The translations under genes and the position numbers were made by a program. The notes beneath the pieces were generated by a model. It saw only the letters and a list, made by a program, of their open reading frames with translations, was not told the DNA's origin and searched no databases. From contig CACXKY010000013.1 in the NCBI GenBank assembly GCA_902768325.1, forward strand, positions 1 to 35,438: a DNA stretch of 35,438 bases, written 5' to 3'. The DNA is from Fibrobacter succinogenes. GTDB taxonomy: Bacteria; Fibrobacterota; Fibrobacteria; Fibrobacterales; Fibrobacteraceae. Position 1 is the first letter of the stretch, and every line of letters begins with the position of its first letter. Positions 24,214 to 35,438 of this stretch are shown here, piece by piece.

Positions 24214-27200
24214 TTACTTGCGCTTGGCACGCTTGAACCCGAACGTCTTGGTGGTATCATCCTTCGTCGTCTTGGTTTCCTGGCTCTTCACATTCGTTTC
24301 CGAAGCCTTGAAGTTGAACTTGGAAATATAGGCACCCGTACCAATCTTCTTGCCCTTCTTCGATTTGGGAGCCTCGCCATCGTGCGCAAGCCATTCTAGG
24401 CTCAGGTGCATGACTCCATCGGGAGAGATGGACTGGCGGACCATTTCCGGATCGATACGAATTTCCTGAGTGTTGATGAACTGTCCCAGGTTATCGAACA
24501 CATCAATGTCGATGGTCACTTCCAAATCAAACTTGTTGGCGACAGATCCGTCAGCCGTATCCTTCGCCAATGCCGTCGGGAGCGTAATGTTCATCATGAA
24601 CGTGGGGCCAGAATGCCTGTAACTCAGAGAATCCACGACAGCCCCGCTGAAGGATAGCTTGCCGCCACTCAAATTGGTCAGGTATTCCTTGCCGTCCTTC
24701 AGGGCGCTGATGCGGAAGAATTCATCCGAACCAGGCTGGAACGATCCATAAACCGATACGTCGCCCGTAGACTTGGTCACGCTCTTCGCCAGGAACACCT
24801 CAAACTTAATCTTGCCCATGGCACCCGAAACAAGACGCCAGGGGTTCTGTGAAGTCGGAAGGTTCCCGGCAACATCCTTATAGCGGCTTGCGCTAATCGG
24901 CAAGCGGATGGAATCACCCGCCTGGATAGCGTCGTCGTTATCGGCATTATAAGTATATATCTGGTTCACACCGCTCTGCTTGACCGCGATAGCGCTACGC
25001 AAGAACGTTCCCGCCGTTCCGCCGCGCATACGTTCGATATATTCGAACTGTTCGTTGTCGAGGAGCACGAGCGGTTCAGAAGCCGTCACCGTAAGGTTCG
25101 TGAAGGAGCCCGAAGTATCCGCCTTGCCAGCAATCAATACCGGCGGGCAGCGGTCTACGACGAAGTAGAACTTATCGAAGAAGCCACCTTCAGGGCCAAG
25201 ACGCGGCGTAATATGGCCATAGCCATCGTAGGCACCGCTGGTAAGGCCCTCTTCAAATCCCGTCGAGGCACTCAGGGAAATCTTCACAATACTGAACGTA
25301 TCGACCGCGGTAACCTTGGTCACAGAATCCAGCCACTTCTCGTAGGGTTCCGAGAGAGAGTCCGTAATAGTCCAGTACTTGTCCTTCGGCACAATCTTTC
25401 CGGTGCTGGTATCAGACTTCGTCACAAAGCTCTTGACCGTGGAGTTCATACCCCAGTCAACGACGAAGCTGTCGAGCATGTCCTTGGGGCGCAGCTTCTT
25501 TTCGAAGAGGATATAGACTTCATCTGCAAAGCCGTCACCCTCGAAGTCACGCATTTCGGCAAGCCTGACCGGAACCGGCTTCGGCGTCTCGGCAATAATC
25601 ACTTCCGTACAGGCCGCCGCAGGGTCAACCGCGTTCATGCTCATATCCATCACGTTAACGCCGGACTTGATAGAAGCCTTGCCGCCTACAGGAATATAGG
25701 AGCCGTTATCGTTACCCGTCACCACGAACTGCCAGCTCTTGCCATCCGTAGTCGTGGTCGCCTTGCCAACGACAGTCAGCGTAGCGCCAGAGGGCACTCC
25801 GGCAACGTCCAGCGGCCACGTCGTAAGGGACGCCATTTCAACAGGCTCGGTAAAGGCGATCATCACCGTATCCTGTTCCGCCTCGTGTCCGGGGTTCTCG
25901 AGGATAGTCACACTCAGAAGCTGCGGAGCGATACCATCGGAAATCTTGACCTTTTCCTCCGTTGTCGTTCCATTGTTCACAAGGAACACCACTGCATCAC
26001 CGCTCGGGCTAGCTGTCGCAGCAACGCCAAGGCTATCGGCCAGCGGCACCGTCACTTCGGAAAGTCCCGTCACGGGCTGCGGCACAGAAACCAGTGCGGT
26101 ATCCTTCATCCCATCCATATAGACCTTCATCTGGGTGAATGAGAAGGTTTCGTCTAAGGTATTGCTGAAGTACACCACCAGCTTGTCCGCCTTATTATCG
26201 CAGTCAGAATCCATGGCAAGGACCTTCTGCGGAGTCGGGTAGTTGGACTCGGCAAAGAACGCCGTGATCCGGCTATGGTCTTCTTCATCATCCGGGTCTT
26301 GGTATTCCACATAAATGGTATCACCGGCGAAGAACGAGATCTCGGTTGAACCGCGACTATCCTTAGATGTAGGTACCGCCGTAATCAAGTTCTTGCTGCG
26401 GAACAGACCTTCGCCAATAGATTCCATCACGACCTTCAGCGTATCCTGCTTCTTGCCGTTTATCACATTGACCGTAATCGTACTCGACGTTTTCGCCTTG
26501 TCCTTATCGTTCAAGTAGATATAGAACTTCTGTTTGGAATCAGGATCCACCACGCCGTTTTTGCCAATGGGATCGCCATTGGCGTCCTTCACAGTGAGCA
26601 CGCCATCCGTCATATTCGGGCGGTTGAAAAGCACATAGAAGTTGCGGTTCACGAAGGCGCAGCCACCGTTTTCCTTACATTCTGCACACTCCGGATCCGG
26701 GCCGGCAAATATGGTGACGTCGATTTTATTGCTACCCACATCCATACGGACAGGAATGTTCAAGTCCCAAATGTCCGTCGCTAAATTGTAATGGGCAATG
26801 ACAACGCCGTTGTATGAGAGGTAGCTTTCGTTATCGAGGAGCATGTATTCAGCATCTATCTTGGAACCATTCGCCCAAATTTGCGTAATGTATCCGCCCT
26901 CGGTAATATGGGCACGTCCCTTCACATACACAGTCTTGCTCGTCTGGTCCACTTCCACATAGCTGCCATCCGAAACATTGAACGGAGCATCAAGGGAAAC
27001 ATCCAGCTCATACTTTGCACGCTTTGTTCCCATTTCGGTTTTAGACGGGCTGTAGCCCCAAATGAATTCATCCTTGCGGTACACAGACACATACGGGTTC
27101 ACCGGAGCTGCGTTAACGTCGATATCGCCAGCATCCTTCGAAACACACGGAATACCCGGGAAATCCGCATAATCACCATTTGCCTTGCTATGAGGCATCC

Positions 27201-30200
27201 AGCTCCAGTCACCTGGGTTTTCAGTCAACGCAGTCGCTCCAGGGAAATCATCCGAAGGGAAATACCACTTATTTCCAGATTTACAATAAAGTTTCTTGTT
27301 CGGAGCTTCGTTCATCAAGTCTTGATGCGGAGGCCACGGACTACGATGGTCAAAGCGCACATCAAAGCGAATACGGCTCGATCCCTTGATGGGTGTGGAC
27401 CCCAATTCCAGCGGGAAATACCATTGCCATGTTCCGGTAGCCGCATCATAGGTATCCTCGATCTTTTCCGGCTTAATATTGCGCAAGGCACGTTCCAATT
27501 GTTCCTTGGTTTCTTCAGTACATTCACCATTGAACCCGGCTTCGTCATAGTCATTGCAAATATCCGTTCCCATACCAATATCTGTTTCAATGTCTTCGGT
27601 TCCACGCATGTAGAGACGAATGGTAAGGCTGTCGAACGTTCTCGATTCGTTATTGTACACATTGATATTCAGCATCGCCATATCTTGCCAGTAATACTGG
27701 TAAGTCTTGACACTGAAGTCATATTGCATCACAGGCGTTGTAAACTTGAAGGGAGCTCCCGTTTCAATGTCAGCATTGGCAAACTGGCCGTTGCTTTCCA
27801 CCATATAGTAATACTGCGTACGTTCCTTGAGTCCGCCAATCTTCACGTAGTGGAATTTGGTTGGCACCCCGGAGATATCCGCGTTTTTCACACCGGAATT
27901 GTGAGCGTATTCGTTTGCATTCGTATGCGGCACCGTATCCCAGTAGACCTTAGATTCGTACTCGCCATTCGGGGTATACCACATGATTTCGGCAGAATCC
28001 GCCGAAACATTACAGACCGTCACATTCTGGATATCCGCACTCTCAACAGTATTCAGTGTTGTAAAACTAAACGGGGTCTGCGTACTATCTACCCTGTACT
28101 TGGCTGTAAAATTGTCTTCATTGTACGCATTGATTCCTATAGCGAAGAAATAGTAGGTAGTGCCGGGTTCCAAGTTCCTTAGAACAATCTGATGGATTAC
28201 TCCAGGGGAGTTATCGTCCGGGGCAGCAGACAAATTCATGGACTGTTCACTTGTTCCATAGCTGATGGCAGCCGTACCTCGCTTTGTCAACTTCACGACA
28301 ACAATAGCCGAATCCATGCTGACATGCTGGATTTCAACACTGACTTTCGGAGCTGCCGTATGGTCTATTTTTTGCGCCGCAAGCATACCGGTACTGACAA
28401 ACGTGGCCGCAGCATCGATACATGTTTCCGCAACATACCAATATTCCCAGCTAGTTCCACTAGCCGACGCAGAGGGGTCAATTACATTCATCAACTTAGG
28501 AATCGTTCCACCATACATAGCACCAACAGGAGGCCTGTAGTAATAATTTTGATCTCCTCCGGGAACATTCTTCCCTTCCGGGTTGGCCGCACGGTGGTGC
28601 GGGTGGGCATCATTCTTATCGCCAATACCATATATGTACGAAAAATCCCAAGGATTCATTCCCAATTCATAATTCAACTGATTAAGAGCCAGCTGATACA
28701 TTTCTTCCGTTTTCCAATCCTGGACAGTCCCTTGCTGCGGGAGGGCGACCCCTTCAAAATCCTTGGCGACATCAACATAGGCCAAAACCTCGAAAATATT
28801 GCCAGCCTGGTAACGGTTATAAATCCAGTCCTGGTCTGTCCCCATACTAAACCAAAGCGGATCGTACTTAACAACATTCATAGAACCCGTATTCCAGTTG
28901 CCATTCGACGGAAGCACAATAGAGGATTCCCCGATTCCATTCATAGGCGGGTTACTCGCCAAATTCGGAATCATGGTATGCAAAATGTCTTCTACATACT
29001 CCAAACGGCGTTCGTTGCTAATGCCATAAGTGGCAGCTTTTTCTTCGGAACTCAAGATAAGTTTATAGAAAGCGTAAAGCGTATAAGCATAGACATTCGC
29101 CCAGCTCGTATTCTTTTTCGCTTTCCAAAGGGTACCGTTCTCCCAAGCAAACCAACCACCTCTAAACATGCCGATTCCATGGGCAGCATCCATATTGCGC
29201 TTGGTATTTTTCGCCCCGTAGTTGGAGAAATTTCTTTCTACGGCATCATTCAGGTAAGTCGTATCCTTAGTAGCATACAGAAGAGCGATTGCCGCAAGGC
29301 CCATTTCGTCATGGAACTCATTATTGCCATTATAGGCAGGAGAATCCCAGCCAGCCGCCTTGGTATTGTTCGTGGCGGTATCTCCCAAAGCAAGTTTCCT
29401 TCCAAATTCATACATCTTTTTCGCAATCATCAAACAACTATCCGCAAAGTCCTTGTCATATTCCGCATAATGCACGCTCAACAAGGCTAAACCCGCAGCA
29501 GTTTCTCCACTGACATTGGCGCCCAATTCCCCGAGGCGGACCGTTCGATCTCCAGGCCCCCCGCGCCCCGTCCTTTCGAGCGGGATATCATCCTGTTTAT
29601 CGGGGCTTCCCCACCATCCGTGGTCGCTATCCTTTATCCCTATAGAAAGAGCCATATTATCAATGACGCCTTTAGCGCGATTATAGGCCCGGAACACAAA
29701 ATCGGCCCCATGTTTGGCTTCACGGAGCATGTCGGGAATACCATCAATAGAGGTCTTTCCTTGGTTATAATCATATACGTCATCGTCAGCATCGGGATTC
29801 GTCGCCGCCATTACCGCCGCGACCATGAAAGCGTACATCTGCGTTTGGGATTCCTTTAAATGGTCCCCACAATCGTACCACCCGCCCTGCAAAGTGCCTG
29901 CCATGGACGCATTAAAACGGCCCCTGACTTCTGCGGCTTTAACAACTTCCGCTCCACCACCATCCTTGAGATGGCTAGGGGGATGGAACCAGTTTTCGCT
30001 ATTTCCACTACGGTTTATTCCATAAAATTTCAAGGTAGCATCGCGAACCATGGAGTACACACGGTCGCTAATAATAAACGTACTCGAAATATCGTTCCCG
30101 ACCTTAATACGGAGACGCTTCTCTACCGGCAGATTCGGAGGCAAATTACCATACATCACTGTGGTGGAGGGAACATTCGCATTCACTTCATAACGTTTTT

Positions 30201-30675
30201 TATCATCTGTGCAAGCATTAGTACCAGCAACAATCTTCAAATTTGACGAAATACTTTTCCCCGTAGATGTGAAGTTCCCTTTAACCGCAGGAGAAAGCGA
30301 CTTACCCTCGGCATCAACCACCTCGAAACTGGACGCGGAACCTACATAGTAAAACAACTTGTCGGGATCCTTTTCCAAATAGCCCGCCTGGTTTATACGA
30401 ATTGGCGATATATGGGAAACCATATTATCCAAATAGGCCTGGTTCAATGTATCGGGAATAAACTCATTAGGGGCAAAGGCTGCCGGAGTTCTATTCTTCG
30501 GCACCATGTTCTTCTTTTTAGTCACAGATGTGTCAAATTTGTCAAAAGCACTCTCATCCCACGTAAGCGGCCAAACCGGGCGAATCAAGTCATACGGGGT
30601 CGGTAGCTCCTGACCGGCAGCCAAAGCGGCTACTACGGCTAACAGCACTGCGGTCAAACTCTTCTTAATAGGCAT
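24214..30675 (-). CDS. giant secreted family 9 cellulase, multidomain
   Basis: Endoglucanase-type enzyme of 2153 residues. A signal peptide (about 1-21) is followed by an N-terminal Ig-like domain (about 88-205, SPIRINQAGYL) and the GH9 catalytic domain (about 206-770). Catalytic elements are Asp268 and Asp271 in WYDCGDH, the HPHHR motif at 691-695 and the proton donor Glu750 in WYVAET. Two fibronectin-III/phosphatase-N-like domains (about 775-980) and several beta-rich modules follow, including segments with D-x-D-x(2)-A/G-D calcium-type motifs (DSDCDNKAD, DFEGDGFAD). The end has a FlgD-like Ig domain (FDNLGQFI to GTGAYISKF) and a basic tail, FGFKRAKRK, as in some Fibrobacter enzymes. GGGAGG precedes the ATG. 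It lies downstream of the SecA-like and M50-HlyD genes, 215 bases away. The family is firm; the roles of the C-terminal modules are inferred. Confidence 0.93.
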   Translation of the reverse strand: MPIKKSLTAVLLAVVAALAAGQELPTPYDLIRPVWPLTWDESAFDKFDTSVTKKKNMVPKNRTPAAFAPNEFIPDTLNQAYLDNMVSHISPIRINQAGYLEKDPDKLFYYVGSASSFEVVDAEGKSLSPAVKGNFTSTGKSISSNLKIVAGTNACTDDKKRYEVNANVPSTTVMYGNLPPNLPVEKRLRIKVGNDISSTFIISDRVYSMVRDATLKFYGINRSGNSENWFHPPSHLKDGGGAEVVKAAEVRGRFNASMAGTLQGGWYDCGDHLKESQTQMYAFMVAAVMAATNPDADDDVYDYNQGKTSIDGIPDMLREAKHGADFVFRAYNRAKGVIDNMALSIGIKDSDHGWWGSPDKQDDIPLERTGRGGPGDRTVRLGELGANVSGETAAGLALLSVHYAEYDKDFADSCLMIAKKMYEFGRKLALGDTATNNTKAAGWDSPAYNGNNEFHDEMGLAAIALLYATKDTTYLNDAVERNFSNYGAKNTKRNMDAAHGIGMFRGGWFAWENGTLWKAKKNTSWANVYAYTLYAFYKLILSSEEKAATYGISNERRLEYVEDILHTMIPNLASNPPMNGIGESSIVLPSNGNWNTGSMNVVKYDPLWFSMGTDQDWIYNRYQAGNIFEVLAYVDVAKDFEGVALPQQGTVQDWKTEEMYQLALNQLNYELGMNPWDFSYIYGIGDKNDAHPHHRAANPEGKNVPGGDQNYYYRPPVGAMYGGTIPKLMNVIDPSASASGTSWEYWYVAETCIDAAATFVSTGMLAAQKIDHTAAPKVSVEIQHVSMDSAIVVVKLTKRGTAAISYGTSEQSMNLSAAPDDNSPGVIHQIVLRNLEPGTTYYFFAIGINAYNEDNFTAKYRVDSTQTPFSFTTLNTVESADIQNVTVCNVSADSAEIMWYTPNGEYESKVYWDTVPHTNANEYAHNSGVKNADISGVPTKFHYVKIGGLKERTQYYYMVESNGQFANADIETGAPFKFTTPVMQYDFSVKTYQYYWQDMAMLNINVYNNESRTFDSLTIRLYMRGTEDIETDIGMGTDICNDYDEAGFNGECTEETKEQLERALRNIKPEKIEDTYDAATGTWQWYFPLELGSTPIKGSSRIRFDVRFDHRSPWPPHQDLMNEAPNKKLYCKSGNKWYFPSDDFPGATALTENPGDWSWMPHSKANGDYADFPGIPCVSKDAGDIDVNAAPVNPYVSVYRKDEFIWGYSPSKTEMGTKRAKYELDVSLDAPFNVSDGSYVEVDQTSKTVYVKGRAHITEGGYITQIWANGSKIDAEYMLLDNESYLSYNGVVIAHYNLATDIWDLNIPVRMDVGSNKIDVTIFAGPDPECAECKENGGCAFVNRNFYVLFNRPNMTDGVLTVKDANGDPIGKNGVVDPDSKQKFYIYLNDKDKAKTSSTITVNVINGKKQDTLKVVMESIGEGLFRSKNLITAVPTSKDSRGSTEISFFAGDTIYVEYQDPDDEEDHSRITAFFAESNYPTPQKVLAMDSDCDNKADKLVVYFSNTLDETFSFTQMKVYMDGMKDTALVSVPQPVTGLSEVTVPLADSLGVAATASPSGDAVVFLVNNGTTTEEKVKISDGIAPQLLSVTILENPGHEAEQDTVMIAFTEPVEMASLTTWPLDVAGVPSGATLTVVGKATTTTDGKSWQFVVTGNDNGSYIPVGGKASIKSGVNVMDMSMNAVDPAAACTEVIIAETPKPVPVRLAEMRDFEGDGFADEVYILFEKKLRPKDMLDSFVVDWGMNSTVKSFVTKSDTSTGKIVPKDKYWTITDSLSEPYEKWLDSVTKVTAVDTFSIVKISLSASTGFEEGLTSGAYDGYGHITPRLGPEGGFFDKFYFVVDRCPPVLIAGKADTSGSFTNLTVTASEPLVLLDNEQFEYIERMRGGTAGTFLRSAIAVKQSGVNQIYTYNADNDDAIQAGDSIRLPISASRYKDVAGNLPTSQNPWRLVSGAMGKIKFEVFLAKSVTKSTGDVSVYGSFQPGSDEFFRISALKDGKEYLTNLSGGKLSFSGAVVDSLSYRHSGPTFMMNITLPTALAKDTADGSVANKFDLEVTIDIDVFDNLGQFINTQEIRIDPEMVRQSISPDGVMHLSLEWLAHDGEAPKSKKGKKIGTGAYISKFNFKASETNVKSQETKTTKDDTTKTFGFKRAKRK

Positions 30676-30890: not shown

Positions 30891-32849
30891 TTAAATATCC
30901 CCGGAACTGAACCCGAGAGATTCCTCGAGCCATGTATCGGTACGCTGGACCGACAGGCGACTCCTATAGGCCTTGCGGCCAGCGATAAACTGCGCCCACT
31001 TGACAACCAGCGCCGAAAAGAATCCCAGGTGCCGAAGCAGCGGCAGCAAAGCCAGCGGTAGATTGCGCCGGAGCAGCTCATCTTCGAAGCTCGCGTAGCG
31101 GCTCGCGCTGCCTGGGTCCCCCTGACGCGCGGCACGCCCAAAAAGCTGGCGGTCAATACGGGACGATGGGTTACATTCTGTCGCGACCACGTGCAGCCCG
31201 CCAATCTTACGGACCTTTTCGGCAATCTTGATATCGGTACCGCGGCCGGCCATGTTCGTAGCGACGGTAATTGCCTCGAACTTGCCCGCTTCGGCGATAA
31301 TGGCGGCCTCTTCTTCACTGCGTACGGCGTTGATGATTCGGCAACTGTACCCCAGTTCCGCAATCTTCGCTCCCAAAATTTCGCTTTCGTCGATATCCTT
31401 CGTACCGATAAGGATCGGGCGCCCCTGCTTGTGGACGCGCACCACTTCACGTACAATCGCCTCGCGCTTCGCGGACTTTGTCGAATAGGACTTCAGGCGG
31501 CCCACCTTGCGGCGGCACTTCCGGTGATTCGGGATGCACACCACGGGAGCCCCGTATATCGTCCAGAACTCTCTTGATGCTTCCTTGCCGGTACCCGTCA
31601 TTCCCGAGAAATTCCTGTAGAGGCGGAAGAACCGCTGGAAGCTCATTCGCGCTTCGGTTTCCTTGAGCCCCGTAATTTCAAGGCCTTCCTTGATTTCTAT
31701 CATCTGGTGCAGCCCGCCGTTCCAGGAACGCATGGGCATCTTTCTGCCGGTAGATTCGTCGACAATCACGACCTTGCCTTCTTCGACAACATACTGGCGC
31801 CCGTTATTGAACAAGTGCCTCGCGACTAGAGCCTGGCGCACCAGGTCCTTGAGGAAGGCGGCCTTGCAGAAGCCGTTCCCGCCCCCATCCGTCTGCTGCA
31901 CCTCTTCCAGGCGCTCATCCATATCGACCAGGAACCGGACCGAACGTTCCTTTTCCTCGACGCGGTAATCACGCCCCTCTTCCAACTTCCGGCTAAGGTC
32001 AAAAGCGAGCTTACAGATGGCGTTGAAGTCCTCGTTATCTTTCTCGCGCGAAATAATGAGCGGCGTCACGGCCTCGTCAATCAGCACGTTGTCGGCCTCG
32101 TCGACAATCGCAGTAAAAAGCCCGCGCTGGACCGTCTGCTGCATAATCCGTTCCATGTTCTCGGTAACGCCGGCAAGCATGCGCTTCGAGAAATCCCGGT
32201 TCGTCCCCAGGGCAATGTTATCGCGCAAAAAATCCGCCAGCACTTCTTTAGCCGTAGAATACGTCACGTCGGCAGAATAGCCTTCCTTGCGTTCGGGCGG
32301 TTTCATCTCGCCTGTCACGCAGCCTACAGTAACACCGCAAAAACTGTATATGGGCTTCATGATTTCGGCATCGCGGCTGGCCAGGTAATCGTTCGCAGTA
32401 ATCACATGACACGGCCGACCGCTCCACCCGCGGACAGTCGCGCAGAGCGCCGCCGTAATGGTTTTGCCCTCGCCCGTAGACATCTCGGCAATATAACCCT
32501 CGTAAAGGGCGTACGCACCGGCAATCTGTTCTATATACGGGTAAAAACCCATCTTGCGGGCAGCCGCCTCGCGTACCATCGCAAAGGCGCACTTGAGGGT
32601 AGCATCGTCTACCTTACGCCGGAAAGCATCGCCCACATCGCGGATACGGGCCTTCAGTTCGCTATCCGAAAGGCCTTTGTAATCCGAGCACAAGCGGTCT
32701 ACCGCTCGCGCGAACCGCAAAATCTTCCACAGCACCGTCCGGCGGCCCTTGAACTTACCGTAAAGCCCCAAGAGGAACGCGTCCAATCCCGTCGGGATTT
32801 TCTTGACGTGCTTCAAGGAAGTCAACCTGTAATTATCGGTAAGATTCAT
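30891..32849 (-). CDS. SecA-like ATPase without C-terminal scaffold
   Basis: A 652-residue paralogue of the SecA preprotein translocase motor. The first nucleotide-binding domain has EMSTGEGKT (Walker A, 125-130), TANDYLASRDAE, and VDEADNVLIDEAVTPLIIS (Walker B and following helix, about 249-267). A shortened preprotein cross-linking domain follows (about 268-365). The second motor domain has IVDESTGR, FRLYRNFSGMTGT, IGTKDIDESE, TNMAGRGTDI (531-540) and GRAARQGDPG (571-580). SecA proteins normally continue for 200-300 residues with the helical scaffold, two-helix finger and zinc-binding tail. Here only about 60 residues remain, partly hydrophobic (LPLALLPLLRHLGFFSALVVKW). The motor seems intact but its substrate handling must differ. 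It is 17 bases from the M50-HlyD gene and surely in its operon. A housekeeping secA is expected elsewhere. Confidence 0.9.
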   Translation of the reverse strand: MNLTDNYRLTSLKHVKKIPTGLDAFLLGLYGKFKGRRTVLWKILRFARAVDRLCSDYKGLSDSELKARIRDVGDAFRRKVDDATLKCAFAMVREAAARKMGFYPYIEQIAGAYALYEGYIAEMSTGEGKTITAALCATVRGWSGRPCHVITANDYLASRDAEIMKPIYSFCGVTVGCVTGEMKPPERKEGYSADVTYSTAKEVLADFLRDNIALGTNRDFSKRMLAGVTENMERIMQQTVQRGLFTAIVDEADNVLIDEAVTPLIISREKDNEDFNAICKLAFDLSRKLEEGRDYRVEEKERSVRFLVDMDERLEEVQQTDGGGNGFCKAAFLKDLVRQALVARHLFNNGRQYVVEEGKVVIVDESTGRKMPMRSWNGGLHQMIEIKEGLEITGLKETEARMSFQRFFRLYRNFSGMTGTGKEASREFWTIYGAPVVCIPNHRKCRRKVGRLKSYSTKSAKREAIVREVVRVHKQGRPILIGTKDIDESEILGAKIAELGYSCRIINAVRSEEEAAIIAEAGKFEAITVATNMAGRGTDIKIAEKVRKIGGLHVVATECNPSSRIDRQLFGRAARQGDPGSASRYASFEDELLRRNLPLALLPLLRHLGFFSALVVKWAQFIAGRKAYRSRLSVQRTDTWLEESLGFSSGDI

Positions 32850-32866
32850 CGGTCCAAAATTACAAA

Positions 32867-35032
32867 CTACATCCGGTAGTACTTCTGCAAGGCCTGTTCC
32901 ACCTTGCGGATTCCCTGCAAAGCCAAAGGAGTATCGCCCAGGTGGAAACGGATCTTGCCGGACCGGCCATGCATCGCATGCACTTCAGCTTTACCTAAAC
33001 GCAATGACGCCCGTACAAGATAGACCGGTTCTGCCGTCTGCTCCGTCGCATCCTTGCCCATGCGCGTTTCAATATCGCCGCCACCATGCCAGCCAAGCGC
33101 AGACGAAGGCAGCTTATCAATCGACGCGGGAATCGCATAGGCGCTATCCACCAGGATTTCATAGAAAGAATCACCCTTCAGGCGCACCGAAATCCGCCGA
33201 GGCGTCCCCATGAACAAGCGGGAAACTTCTTCTTGCGAAACCACGGCCAAGAAATTGAACGCCGTCGTATCCAGGAGCATTCCCAGGGAATCCCCCTTGG
33301 AAACCCACTTGTCGACAAAGTCGTCGATGTTGTCGACATTCCAGATGCCATCCATACCGGCGACCATCACCAAGCGGTCTTTCTGCAACTTGAGTTCTTC
33401 CAGTTCCTGGCGCAAGACTTCTATACGCTTTTCCAGCGGATACATGTTTTCTGGCGTTTCGTTCAAAGCCTTGTAGTACTGCTGTACGGCCTCGTTGATT
33501 TCCGCATTCTTCTCGTCTATCGTGAAACCGAGTTCTTCGTTTTGCAAGACGACTAACGTATCCCCGCCAGCCACGAAGTCCCCGGACTGGTGGTAAACCT
33601 TCGACACCCTGCCCGATGTAGCGACAATCGTATCTTCGAACTGCTTGGCTTCCAAGACGCCCGGTGCTGTAAACGTGTCCGGAACGGGAATGTAGAAAAG
33701 CGCCGCGAAAAGGGAACCGAAGAAGATGACCGAGATAGTCACCGCCCGCAAGCGAACACGCGTCAAGGCGGGACTGTTGAACACGTACTTCAGGAACTTG
33801 CCCACAGGCATAACGACCATCGAAAGCAGGAGCATCGCGCCCATAATCACAGAGAGAATCAGGTAATGCTGCGAAGCGGCGATAATGAAACCCGCGAAAA
33901 GGAAGAACCTGTAAACGGCACTCGATATCCCGTAGATGGTGAAAATAACAGCTTCGCTCCAGGTTTCTGCCACCTTTTGCGCATCTTGCTTGCGGAACGC
34001 AAACCGTTCGAGCAAGTACTTGAGGTGCATTACGGAATGCTGCTGCAGGTTGGGCATGTCCAGCAAGTCCGTCAAGATGTAGTAGCCGTCGAAGCGCATC
34101 AACGGGTTAATGTTGAACAGCACCGTCGAAACGGACGACATAATCAACACGTTATAAGCCAGGCTCCTGACAAGACCGCCACCCACGTTCGCCCAGATAA
34201 TCATGGCAATGGAAGCGATAAAGAACTCGCACAGCATACCGGCCGCACCCACAAACATCCTGTGGCGTTTTTTGCGGAAAGACCAGCTCGCGGTAGCGTC
34301 CATGTACGGGAGCGGCACGAGCATCATGAACATGATGCCAATCGTGTGGACCTCGCCGCCATACTTCTTGACGGCAAAGGAGTGCCCCAGTTCATGCAGG
34401 ACCTTGACGAGTACGGTGCAGACATACACCCAGCCGATATTGGACGGGGCGAGGAATCCCTGCGCCTGGTCCTTGAGCGTGTCGAAATTTTCTATTCCGT
34501 ACTTGACTGCCACCGCGATTGTCGCAAGCCACACCAAGAAGAAGAACTTCGAAAAGAAGAACGAGCCCACCCACTTGAAGCGACGGAGCATCGGTTCCGG
34601 ATCAAATATCGGAAGGCGTAAGAAAAAGATGTTCAGGAGGGTCGACTTGACCTTCTTCTGGGTATTTTTCTTGTCGCGATCGAACAGCTTCGAACCGTCC
34701 TCTACACCTTCGTACAGGAGCATATTCGCCTGGTAAAGCTGGGCGAGCATCTCGATGACTTCGCCCTGACCAGGGACATCTTCGGCACCGCTGTTCAGCA
34801 GTTCGTTCCAGATTTCACCGACCGTCTTCTTCTGGGTCAGGCGAGAAACGAACTCGTATGCCCCTTGGGGCAAGCGGTAGTACTTATTTGTAAAGGGATC
34901 GAAAAGGACATACCACAAAATCCCGCGGTACATCTGACGATGCACCCGGACACTGGCCCGGAGAGCAATTTTGCTCCCGCTGAGCCTGTACCAGGATTCA
35001 TGGAATATCTTGCGTTGCTGGTCGAGAATCAT
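32867..35032 (-). CDS. PqqD-like / M50 zinc protease / HlyD adaptor fusion membrane protein
   Basis: A 721-residue membrane protein. Residues 35-108 resemble a PqqD-type peptide-binding domain (WYVLFDPFTNKYYRLP, TVGEIWNELL). The middle has about eight hydrophobic segments and the intramembrane M50 (site-2 protease) motifs: HELGH at 213-217 and NPLMRFDGYYILTD with Asp315 as third zinc ligand. After the last membrane segment (about 430-448), residues 455-721 form a HlyD-type adaptor: a lipoyl-like half (GVLEAKQFEDTIVATSGRV), a coiled coil (about 505-555), a second half and a beta-barrel part. Such M50-HlyD proteins are annotated as putative peptide zinc metalloproteases and are linked to peptide maturation or export. 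The zinc ligands are intact. The gene follows the Ala/Pro-linker gene by 10 bases and precedes the SecA-like gene by 17. Confidence 0.88.
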   Translation of the reverse strand: MILDQQRKIFHESWYRLSGSKIALRASVRVHRQMYRGILWYVLFDPFTNKYYRLPQGAYEFVSRLTQKKTVGEIWNELLNSGAEDVPGQGEVIEMLAQLYQANMLLYEGVEDGSKLFDRDKKNTQKKVKSTLLNIFFLRLPIFDPEPMLRRFKWVGSFFFSKFFFLVWLATIAVAVKYGIENFDTLKDQAQGFLAPSNIGWVYVCTVLVKVLHELGHSFAVKKYGGEVHTIGIMFMMLVPLPYMDATASWSFRKKRHRMFVGAAGMLCEFFIASIAMIIWANVGGGLVRSLAYNVLIMSSVSTVLFNINPLMRFDGYYILTDLLDMPNLQQHSVMHLKYLLERFAFRKQDAQKVAETWSEAVIFTIYGISSAVYRFFLFAGFIIAASQHYLILSVIMGAMLLLSMVVMPVGKFLKYVFNSPALTRVRLRAVTISVIFFGSLFAALFYIPVPDTFTAPGVLEAKQFEDTIVATSGRVSKVYHQSGDFVAGGDTLVVLQNEELGFTIDEKNAEINEAVQQYYKALNETPENMYPLEKRIEVLRQELEELKLQKDRLVMVAGMDGIWNVDNIDDFVDKWVSKGDSLGMLLDTTAFNFLAVVSQEEVSRLFMGTPRRISVRLKGDSFYEILVDSAYAIPASIDKLPSSALGWHGGGDIETRMGKDATEQTAEPVYLVRASLRLGKAEVHAMHGRSGKIRFHLGDTPLALQGIRKVEQALQKYYRM

Positions 35033-35042
35033 CTTCTATGTA

Positions 35043-35438
35043 TTAGCCTACAAAAGCGGAAGCCACGAACTGGCAAGCCTTTGCAGCGTGCAAATATACA
35101 TAGATAAAGTCATCTTCGCTAGCCACATCGGAGAGATTGACCTGATAAGAGAGGTCAACATCCTCTTCGACGCTTCTACGCTTTTTGCTCGAATCGTCCC
35201 AGCTCCAAGTAAGTGCCGGCAAGGAGTTGCCATCTTCGCTGTTCACCATCAAGCTCACCGACGAAGCAGATGCGACATTCGATGCACCAATCTTGATGCG
35301 GACCGTCTCACCAGCGCCCACGGAAATAGTATCCGGCAAGCCGTCGACCAGTTCAGTTTCGCTATCGAAACCGGCCAAAGCAGCTGCAGGGGCTGCGGCC
35401 GGAGCCGGAGTCGCCGCAGTGTTCTTTTCACCGGGGAG
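35043..35438 (-). CDS. C-terminal part of an Ala/Pro-linker protein, 5' end cut
   Basis: The frame is open from the window edge to the stop at 35043, giving 131 residues. It begins with an Ala/Pro/Thr linker (NTAATPAPAAAPAAA), then a domain of about 105 residues with a beta pattern: TISVGAGETVRIKIGAS, SVSLMVNSEDG, LTWSWDD, a basic KKRR patch, VDLSYQVNLSD, FIYVYLHAAKACQF. The last strand carries the only Cys. It is 10 bases upstream of the M50-HlyD gene, so it probably belongs to the same operon. It could be a larger adaptor or a cargo protein; no family was recognised. Confidence 0.75.
   Translation of the reverse strand, partial: LPGEKNTAATPAPAAAPAAALAGFDSETELVDGLPDTISVGAGETVRIKIGASNVASASSVSLMVNSEDGNSLPALTWSWDDSSKKRRSVEEDVDLSYQVNLSDVASEDDFIYVYLHAAKACQFVASAFVG

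Follow-up and report, generated by a model that had tools for sequence, protein, structure and literature searches.

The SecA-like ATPase gene and its neighbour, which encodes a fusion of a PqqD-like domain, an M50 membrane protease and a HlyD-type adaptor, belong to a conserved bacterial machine, the probable function of which is the export of giant surface proteins of ~3,800 to 13,000 residues. This machine is likely to depend on TolC and to be dedicated to surface proteins of the giant LEPR-XLL kind, and a truncated SecA-like ATPase takes part in it. Both genes are located in the window, which is the whole of contig C13 (35,438 bases) from a metagenome-assembled genome of Fibrobacter, and the edge of the window is the edge of the contig. 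The results support the original prediction that a motor, a protease and a periplasmic adaptor function jointly in export. The prediction left open whether a peptide or a surface protein is exported; the surface protein is retained, now as a giant LEPR-XLL protein, and the small partner is not retained as a separate protein.

SecA-like ATPase

The window contains two tightly spaced minus-strand ORFs, and the gap of 17 bases between them is confirmed. One ORF (positions 30891–32849, minus strand) encodes a SecA-like ATPase of 652 residues, termed c0 (P0001), and the other (32867–35032, minus strand) encodes a fusion protein of 721 residues, termed c1 (P0002). The c0 protein consists of two nucleotide-binding domains, a preprotein cross-linking domain and the first scaffold helix, and is matched by SecA_DEAD, PP-binding (the preprotein cross-linking domain) and P-loop_SecA in profile searches. 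The Walker A motif STGEGKT (residues 124–130; 32460–32480, minus strand) is invariant from T125 on in the alignment of the SecA-like relatives, and the DEAD motif (residues 250–253; 32091–32102, minus strand) and the later ATPase motifs are invariant as well. In the alignment, c0 stops where E. coli SecA (901 residues) has residue 663, in agreement with the proposal that c0 is a SecA paralogue without the normal C-terminal part. When Fibrobacterota, Spirochaetaceae and alphaproteobacterial members of the SecA-like class are aligned with five full-length SecAs, all of the SecA-like members end around this residue, after the first scaffold helix, and the helical wing domain, two-helix finger and C-tail are missing in the whole class.

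In an unrooted maximum-likelihood tree, a branch with 100/99 support separates 26 SecA-like rows from 13 full-length SecAs, one of which is from a Lactobacillus SecA2/SecY2-type locus. Random duplication or decay of SecA is rejected in view of one well-supported group with a common end point across phyla. The best structure match of the predicted c0 model (mean pLDDT 72.9, moderate confidence) is SecA (3jv2, TM 0.73), and truncated SecA-N68 (5k9t) is also among the matches.

PqqD-like/M50/HlyD fusion protein

The c1 protein contains approximately seven hydrophobic segments, and each of the three parts assigned to it from the beginning is matched in profile searches. The PqqD-like (RRE-type) domain (residues 41–105; 34718–34912, minus strand) matches PF05402 with an E-value of 2.7e-4 and a score of 21.6 bits, just below the Pfam cut-off of 23.4. 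The M50 part is weak in Pfam, and residues 26–410 match the daptide M50 family NF041824 with 151 bits, as compared to its curated cut-off of 300 bits. The N-terminal half of c1 resembles a daptide intramembrane metalloprotease. The features of an M50 site-2 protease, an HExxH motif and a distant aspartate ligand, are both found in c1: the zinc motif HELGH is located at residues 213–217 (34382–34396, minus strand), and the candidate for the third zinc ligand is D315 in NPLMRFDG (34088–34090, minus strand). H213, E214 and H217 are invariant in 15 aligned relatives, and D315 is invariant in the alignment. In the wider set of c1 sequences, HExxH is present in all 15, and the pattern for the aspartate ligand is unmatched in four, one of which is from Thalassospira. 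The C-terminal half matches HlyD/RND adaptors, with the HlyD/MacA/MexA-like periplasmic adaptor region at approximately residues 434–640 (33113–33733, minus strand). The predicted model of c1 is of moderate confidence (mean pLDDT 72.9).

LEPR-XLL giants

A third ORF (35043–35438, minus strand; P0003) is separated from the c1 gene by 10 bases, as originally noted. It was taken for a small-domain partner completing a set of three genes; the SecA-like and PqqD-M50-HlyD genes are as described, and the third ORF encodes the terminal 131 residues of a LEPR-XLL giant, with the domain common to the C-termini of Fibrobacter giants. These residues are 90% identical over 105 residues to the end of a 3,839-residue giant from the closest relative (G137), the gene for which precedes the M50-HlyD gene and the sequence of which begins with MSKQQKRNAMKKYVGKKYKIEALEPRLLMDAS. 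In addition, the last 99 bases of a giant ORF on contig C10 of the same genome are exactly the start of the reverse-complemented window, and joining C10 and the window gives a giant ORF of 3,882 residues that begins with a LEPR-XLL motif. A small partner protein is ruled out by this 90% match and the joined ORF. The join itself is strongly suggested but unproven, because a 99-base end overlap is typical of an assembly-graph branch.

The LEPR-XLL motif of the C10 giant is scored at 18.5 bits (NF012209, cut-off 17), and those of plasmid giants are scored at up to 37.6 bits. A second LEPR giant of the genome (4,963 residues; C17:23741–38632; 19.6 bits) has no exporter genes beside it. No hydrophobic segment is detected in the first 100 residues of the giants, for which the maximum Kyte-Doolittle value over 15 residues is 0.3–1.1, as compared to 2.5 for two exported proteins. 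The net charge before the LEPR motif is +3 to +13. Each Fibrobacter giant contains 12–25 RTX-type nonapeptides, most of which are located in its second half. Pfam confirms the RTX repeats in one giant. Such repeats, together with the common C-terminal domain, are the profile of an extracellular protein with folding after export. The C-terminal domain is common to the Fibrobacter giants, and the motif common across phyla is the N-terminal LEPR. Alphaproteobacterial plasmid giants reach ~12,900 residues, and several of them are annotated as 'LEPR-XLL domain-containing protein'.

Gene order and co-occurrence

Contig C10 carries, divergently from the giant gene, the genes for a GAF-HlyD protein (c3), TolC (c7), HlyD (c4) and a lipoprotein (c16), and carries the gene for a DUF3467 protein on the strand of the giant gene. 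The genome of the window therefore has all parts of the system, divided between two contigs with an overlap of 99 nt. The c3 protein consists of a GAF domain, a transmembrane helix and HlyD, and c16 is a CarboxypepD_reg/Ig-like lipoprotein of Fibrobacterota. A domain search confirms OEP (PF02321, 97.5 bits), HlyD families (59–74 bits) and GAF in the partner proteins, and TolC is also annotated in the plasmid loci. The TolC-like gene sought near the locus is thus present, together with two further HlyD-type adaptors, DUF3467 and, in Fibrobacterota, the lipoprotein. The gene order of the joined Fibrobacter loci is c3-c7-c4-c16 on one strand, followed by DUF3467, usually a gene for ~370–490 residues, the giant, c1 and c0. 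The giant, c1 and c0 genes are neighbours, and the remaining parts are located upstream in divergent orientation. The giants of these loci consist of 4,683–7,246 residues where read whole, and of 8,229 residues in G128. The c3 gene is not found complete at the expected place in three of the ten joined loci, and it directly follows c0 in L039, L057 and L058. The order is c4-c3-c1-c0 with an adjoining TolC gene in Chitinispirillaceae and one Spirochaetaceae genome, and giant-DUF3467-adaptors-c1-SecA-like-adaptor-TolC, with variations, in alphaproteobacterial plasmids. In Pseudosulfitobacter (L098, 17251–18072), a SapC-family gene is located between the c1 and SecA-like genes. The plasmid of this record (NZ_CP085155.1) contains two LEPR giants, with frames of 12,780 and 12,957 residues, and both c1 and the SecA-like class are found at two places on it.

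A strong match to c1 is found in 33 of 168 Fibrobacterota genomes. In these 168 genomes, 32 of the 33 with c1 also have a member of the SecA-like class (47–83% identity to P0001), and 32 of the 33 with the SecA-like class also have c1. The only genome with c1 but without the SecA-like gene is G165, in which the contig ends just after c1. The only genome with the opposite pattern is G096, in which the SecA-like gene is present as broken fragments, c1 and the giant are gone from this place, and the same GH9 gene as in the window is located beside them. This region (contig C9; L156, 8007–8892) is a naturally decayed locus in which two SecA-like fragments remain. The c0 and c1 genes are adjacent almost everywhere where they are present, as expected for a conserved neighbourhood; in G137 they are on separate contigs. 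The c3 gene is found in 31 of the 33 genomes with c1 and in two of the 135 others, which are G087, with a divergent gene block on a contig ending early, and G114, in which the neighbour of c3 is a LEPR giant extending past the end of the sequence read. LEPR matches in frames of more than 900 residues at E<=0.001 are found in 13 genomes, all of which have c1, and those in genomes without c1 are limited to frames of less than 200 residues. At E<=1, the motif is seen in long frames of additional c1-positive Fibrobacter genomes. It is not found in the distant operon carriers G016, G020, G044, G147, G149, G165 and the Spirochaetaceae genome G168, in which the operon is present without a recognised giant. 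A full-length relative of c1 is found in 13 of 72,556 plasmid records, and a member of the SecA-like class is found in 12 of these 13, recognised either from its position or from an alignment that extends through its own C-terminus. A LEPR giant is present in all 11 c1 plasmids tested. Fisher p values are 4e-32 for the genomes and 3e-49 for the plasmids, but they are not corrected for phylogeny and should be taken as counts.

A gene for a GH9 cellulase-like protein (24214–30675, minus strand; 2,153 residues) adjoins the locus in the window, and the same gene adjoins the locus remnant in G096 and the unlinked SecA-like gene in G137. This enzyme is regarded as neighbouring synteny only and not as part of the system, because it has its own hydrophobic N-terminus and is absent among the operon genes seen in other groups. 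A role of the locus in anti-phage defence was also considered and rejected, with no PADLOC match.

Sister branch

Sister M50-HlyD proteins with ~25% identity are encoded by operons of the order giant-TolC-HlyD-HlyD-M50-HlyD. The giants are DUF4347/Ig/tandem-95 proteins, and the hosts are Niveispirillum (DUF4347 giant), Variovorax (tandem-95 giant, 16,000 residues), Magnetospirillum (smaller ELWxxDGT protein) and E. coli plasmids. No SecA-like gene is adjacent to the sister operons at the loci examined. The E. coli plasmid NZ_CP104683.1 (L178, 1–13782) carries a 13.4-kb giant gene, TolC, two HlyD and M50-HlyD genes with no SecA-like gene nearby, and its giant begins with the variant motif ALESRQLFDGAA. 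M50-HlyD matches are found in 18 Escherichia plasmid records. In Variovorax paradoxus CP063167.1 (L177), a 48.7-kb tandem-95 giant gene is located beside TolC, HlyD, HlyD and M50-HlyD genes, followed by type II secretion genes. The Thalassospira marina plasmid NZ_CP024200.1 (L101) contains a LEPR giant, DUF3467, adaptors, a full-length c1 and TolC, and the SecA-like gene is absent from this plasmid. The design of the exporter thus extends beyond the branch with SecA-like proteins. As judged from the loci and plasmids examined, a SecA-like protein is not a constant part of it, because neither the sister operons nor the Thalassospira plasmid has a linked SecA-like gene. The sister branch weakens the assumption that the motor is essential.

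Proposed mechanism

The proposed parts of the exporter are the LEPR giant as a substrate, the small DUF3467 protein, c4, c3, c1, c0 and the TolC/OEP channel c7, with c16 in addition in Fibrobacterota. The basic, non-hydrophobic N-terminus of the giant, which ends with LEPRxLM or LEPRxLL, would be bound in the cytosol by the PqqD-like domain of c1. The chain, still unfolded, would then be threaded by the SecA-like ATPase into a channel that c1 forms alone or with other components, and the leader may be cut off by the M50 domain of c1. Passage to the outside would be through the three HlyD-type proteins and TolC, and the RTX-type calcium repeats would fold there.

A core role of the SecA-like protein in its branch is suggested by its strict co-occurrence with c1 and its fully conserved ATPase motifs. 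These observations, the former of which is made in two unrelated groups, argue against the alternative that the LEPR-giant exporter is real but that c0 is an accessory unfoldase/holdase or a quality-control ATPase, with translocation driven by the housekeeping SecA/SecYEG or by the proton motive force through c1. The sister operons and the Thalassospira plasmid are consistent with such an accessory role, as is the lack in c0 of the two-helix finger, which is the element by which known SecA acts at SecY. However, no other energy source besides c0 is seen in the loci, and this alternative is unlikely. It is considerably less probable that the SecA-like protein functions in an accessory Sec system of the SecA2 type, in which it would bring the giant to the periplasm with SecYEG or SecY2, and the adaptors and TolC would perform a second step. 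The SecA homology of c0 is clear, but the giants have no hydrophobic signal, the helical wing domain is missing together with the finger in the whole class, and SecY is not encoded in the annotated operons. Among 17 genomes with or without the system, 16 have one SecY, none is found in the seventeenth, and a second SecY is found in none of them; the SecY2-type version is ruled out by this count.

The least probable explanation, to which hardly any weight is given, is that the operon is one of convenience, in which c1 matures a small peptide or an efflux substrate and the giant leaves by a type 1 or type 9 route. The M50 half of c1 is related to RiPP leader proteases, and Fibrobacter is thought to have other secretion routes too. 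However, no small precursor gene is noticed at the loci, the giant is located beside the exporter genes in both Fibrobacterota and Alphaproteobacteria, and both the joint loss of c1 and the giant in G096 and the co-occurrence statistics argue against separate functions. Export of the giant by c1, the adaptors and TolC, with the SecA-like protein as the putative motor, is the preferred explanation.

For some of the largest known proteins of bacteria, no exporter has been described, and one catalogued group of them, LEPR-XLL, is now linked to a defined gene set. This set spans Fibrobacterota and Alphaproteobacteria, its exporter genes are also present in one Spirochaetaceae genome, and a related branch is present on E. 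coli plasmids. The giants of Fibrobacter, a rumen cellulose degrader, are candidates for adhesion or surface structure. The proposal that a SecA motor may work outside SecY is a testable claim on how SecA pushes chains.

Comparison with known systems

The nearest known proteins to the putative substrates are LEPR-XLL domain proteins (NF012209) and DUF4347 giants, and the substrates carry the catalogued N-terminal LEPR-XLL motif. None of the papers found connects this family with a SecA-like exporter; a published mention of LEPR-XLL concerns a giant in Vibrio, without SecA or HlyD. No account of the combination of SecA-like protein, M50-HlyD and LEPR giant is found in the open-access literature searched. 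The c1 protein shares a PqqD-like domain and an M50 membrane protease with HExxH with the daptide/epipeptide proteases (NF041824, NF058609), but reaches only about half of the curated cut-off, is fused to a HlyD adaptor, and is linked to giants instead of a precursor peptide.

The motor core of c0 (NBD1, PPXD, NBD2 and the first scaffold helix) is ~40% identical to that of SecA. Of the features of a SecA translocase, c0 has Walker A, DEAD and the preprotein cross-linking domain, but not the helical wing domain and two-helix finger. Of those of accessory Sec systems, a second SecA paralogue is present, but a dedicated SecY2 is not; unlike in SecA/SecA2 systems, the C-tail is also missing and the genes are linked to TolC and HlyD.

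A 2021 review (PMC8277102) names ABC, RND and MFS transporters as the units that supply energy in tripartite and type 1 systems, and SecA is named in its accessible part only beside SecDF. According to a 2026 review (PMC13243786), the canonical type 1 system is defined by three components, namely an ABC transporter, an adaptor and TolC. The system described here shares HlyD-type adaptors and a TolC channel with type 1 secretion systems such as HlyB-HlyD-TolC and LapBCE, and its putative substrates are likewise giant proteins with RTX repeats that lack a Sec signal peptide. It differs from them in that a SecA paralogue is present, whereas neither the annotated operon genes nor the system genes recognised at the Fibrobacter loci include an ABC transporter as the energised inner-membrane unit. 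The candidate signal is N-terminal (LEPR), whereas the type 1 signal is C-terminal, and three distinct HlyD-type proteins are present, of which one includes the M50 protease and another a GAF domain. It is conceivable, though somewhat doubtful, that the system represents a separate secretion class rather than a variant of type 1 secretion, defined by a finger-less SecA-derived motor, a protease-adaptor fusion as a channel, and giants without signal peptides, the LEPR leader of which would be read by the PqqD-like domain and cut by M50. The system is regarded as a variant of TolC-dependent tripartite export, with a fair chance of forming a class of its own.
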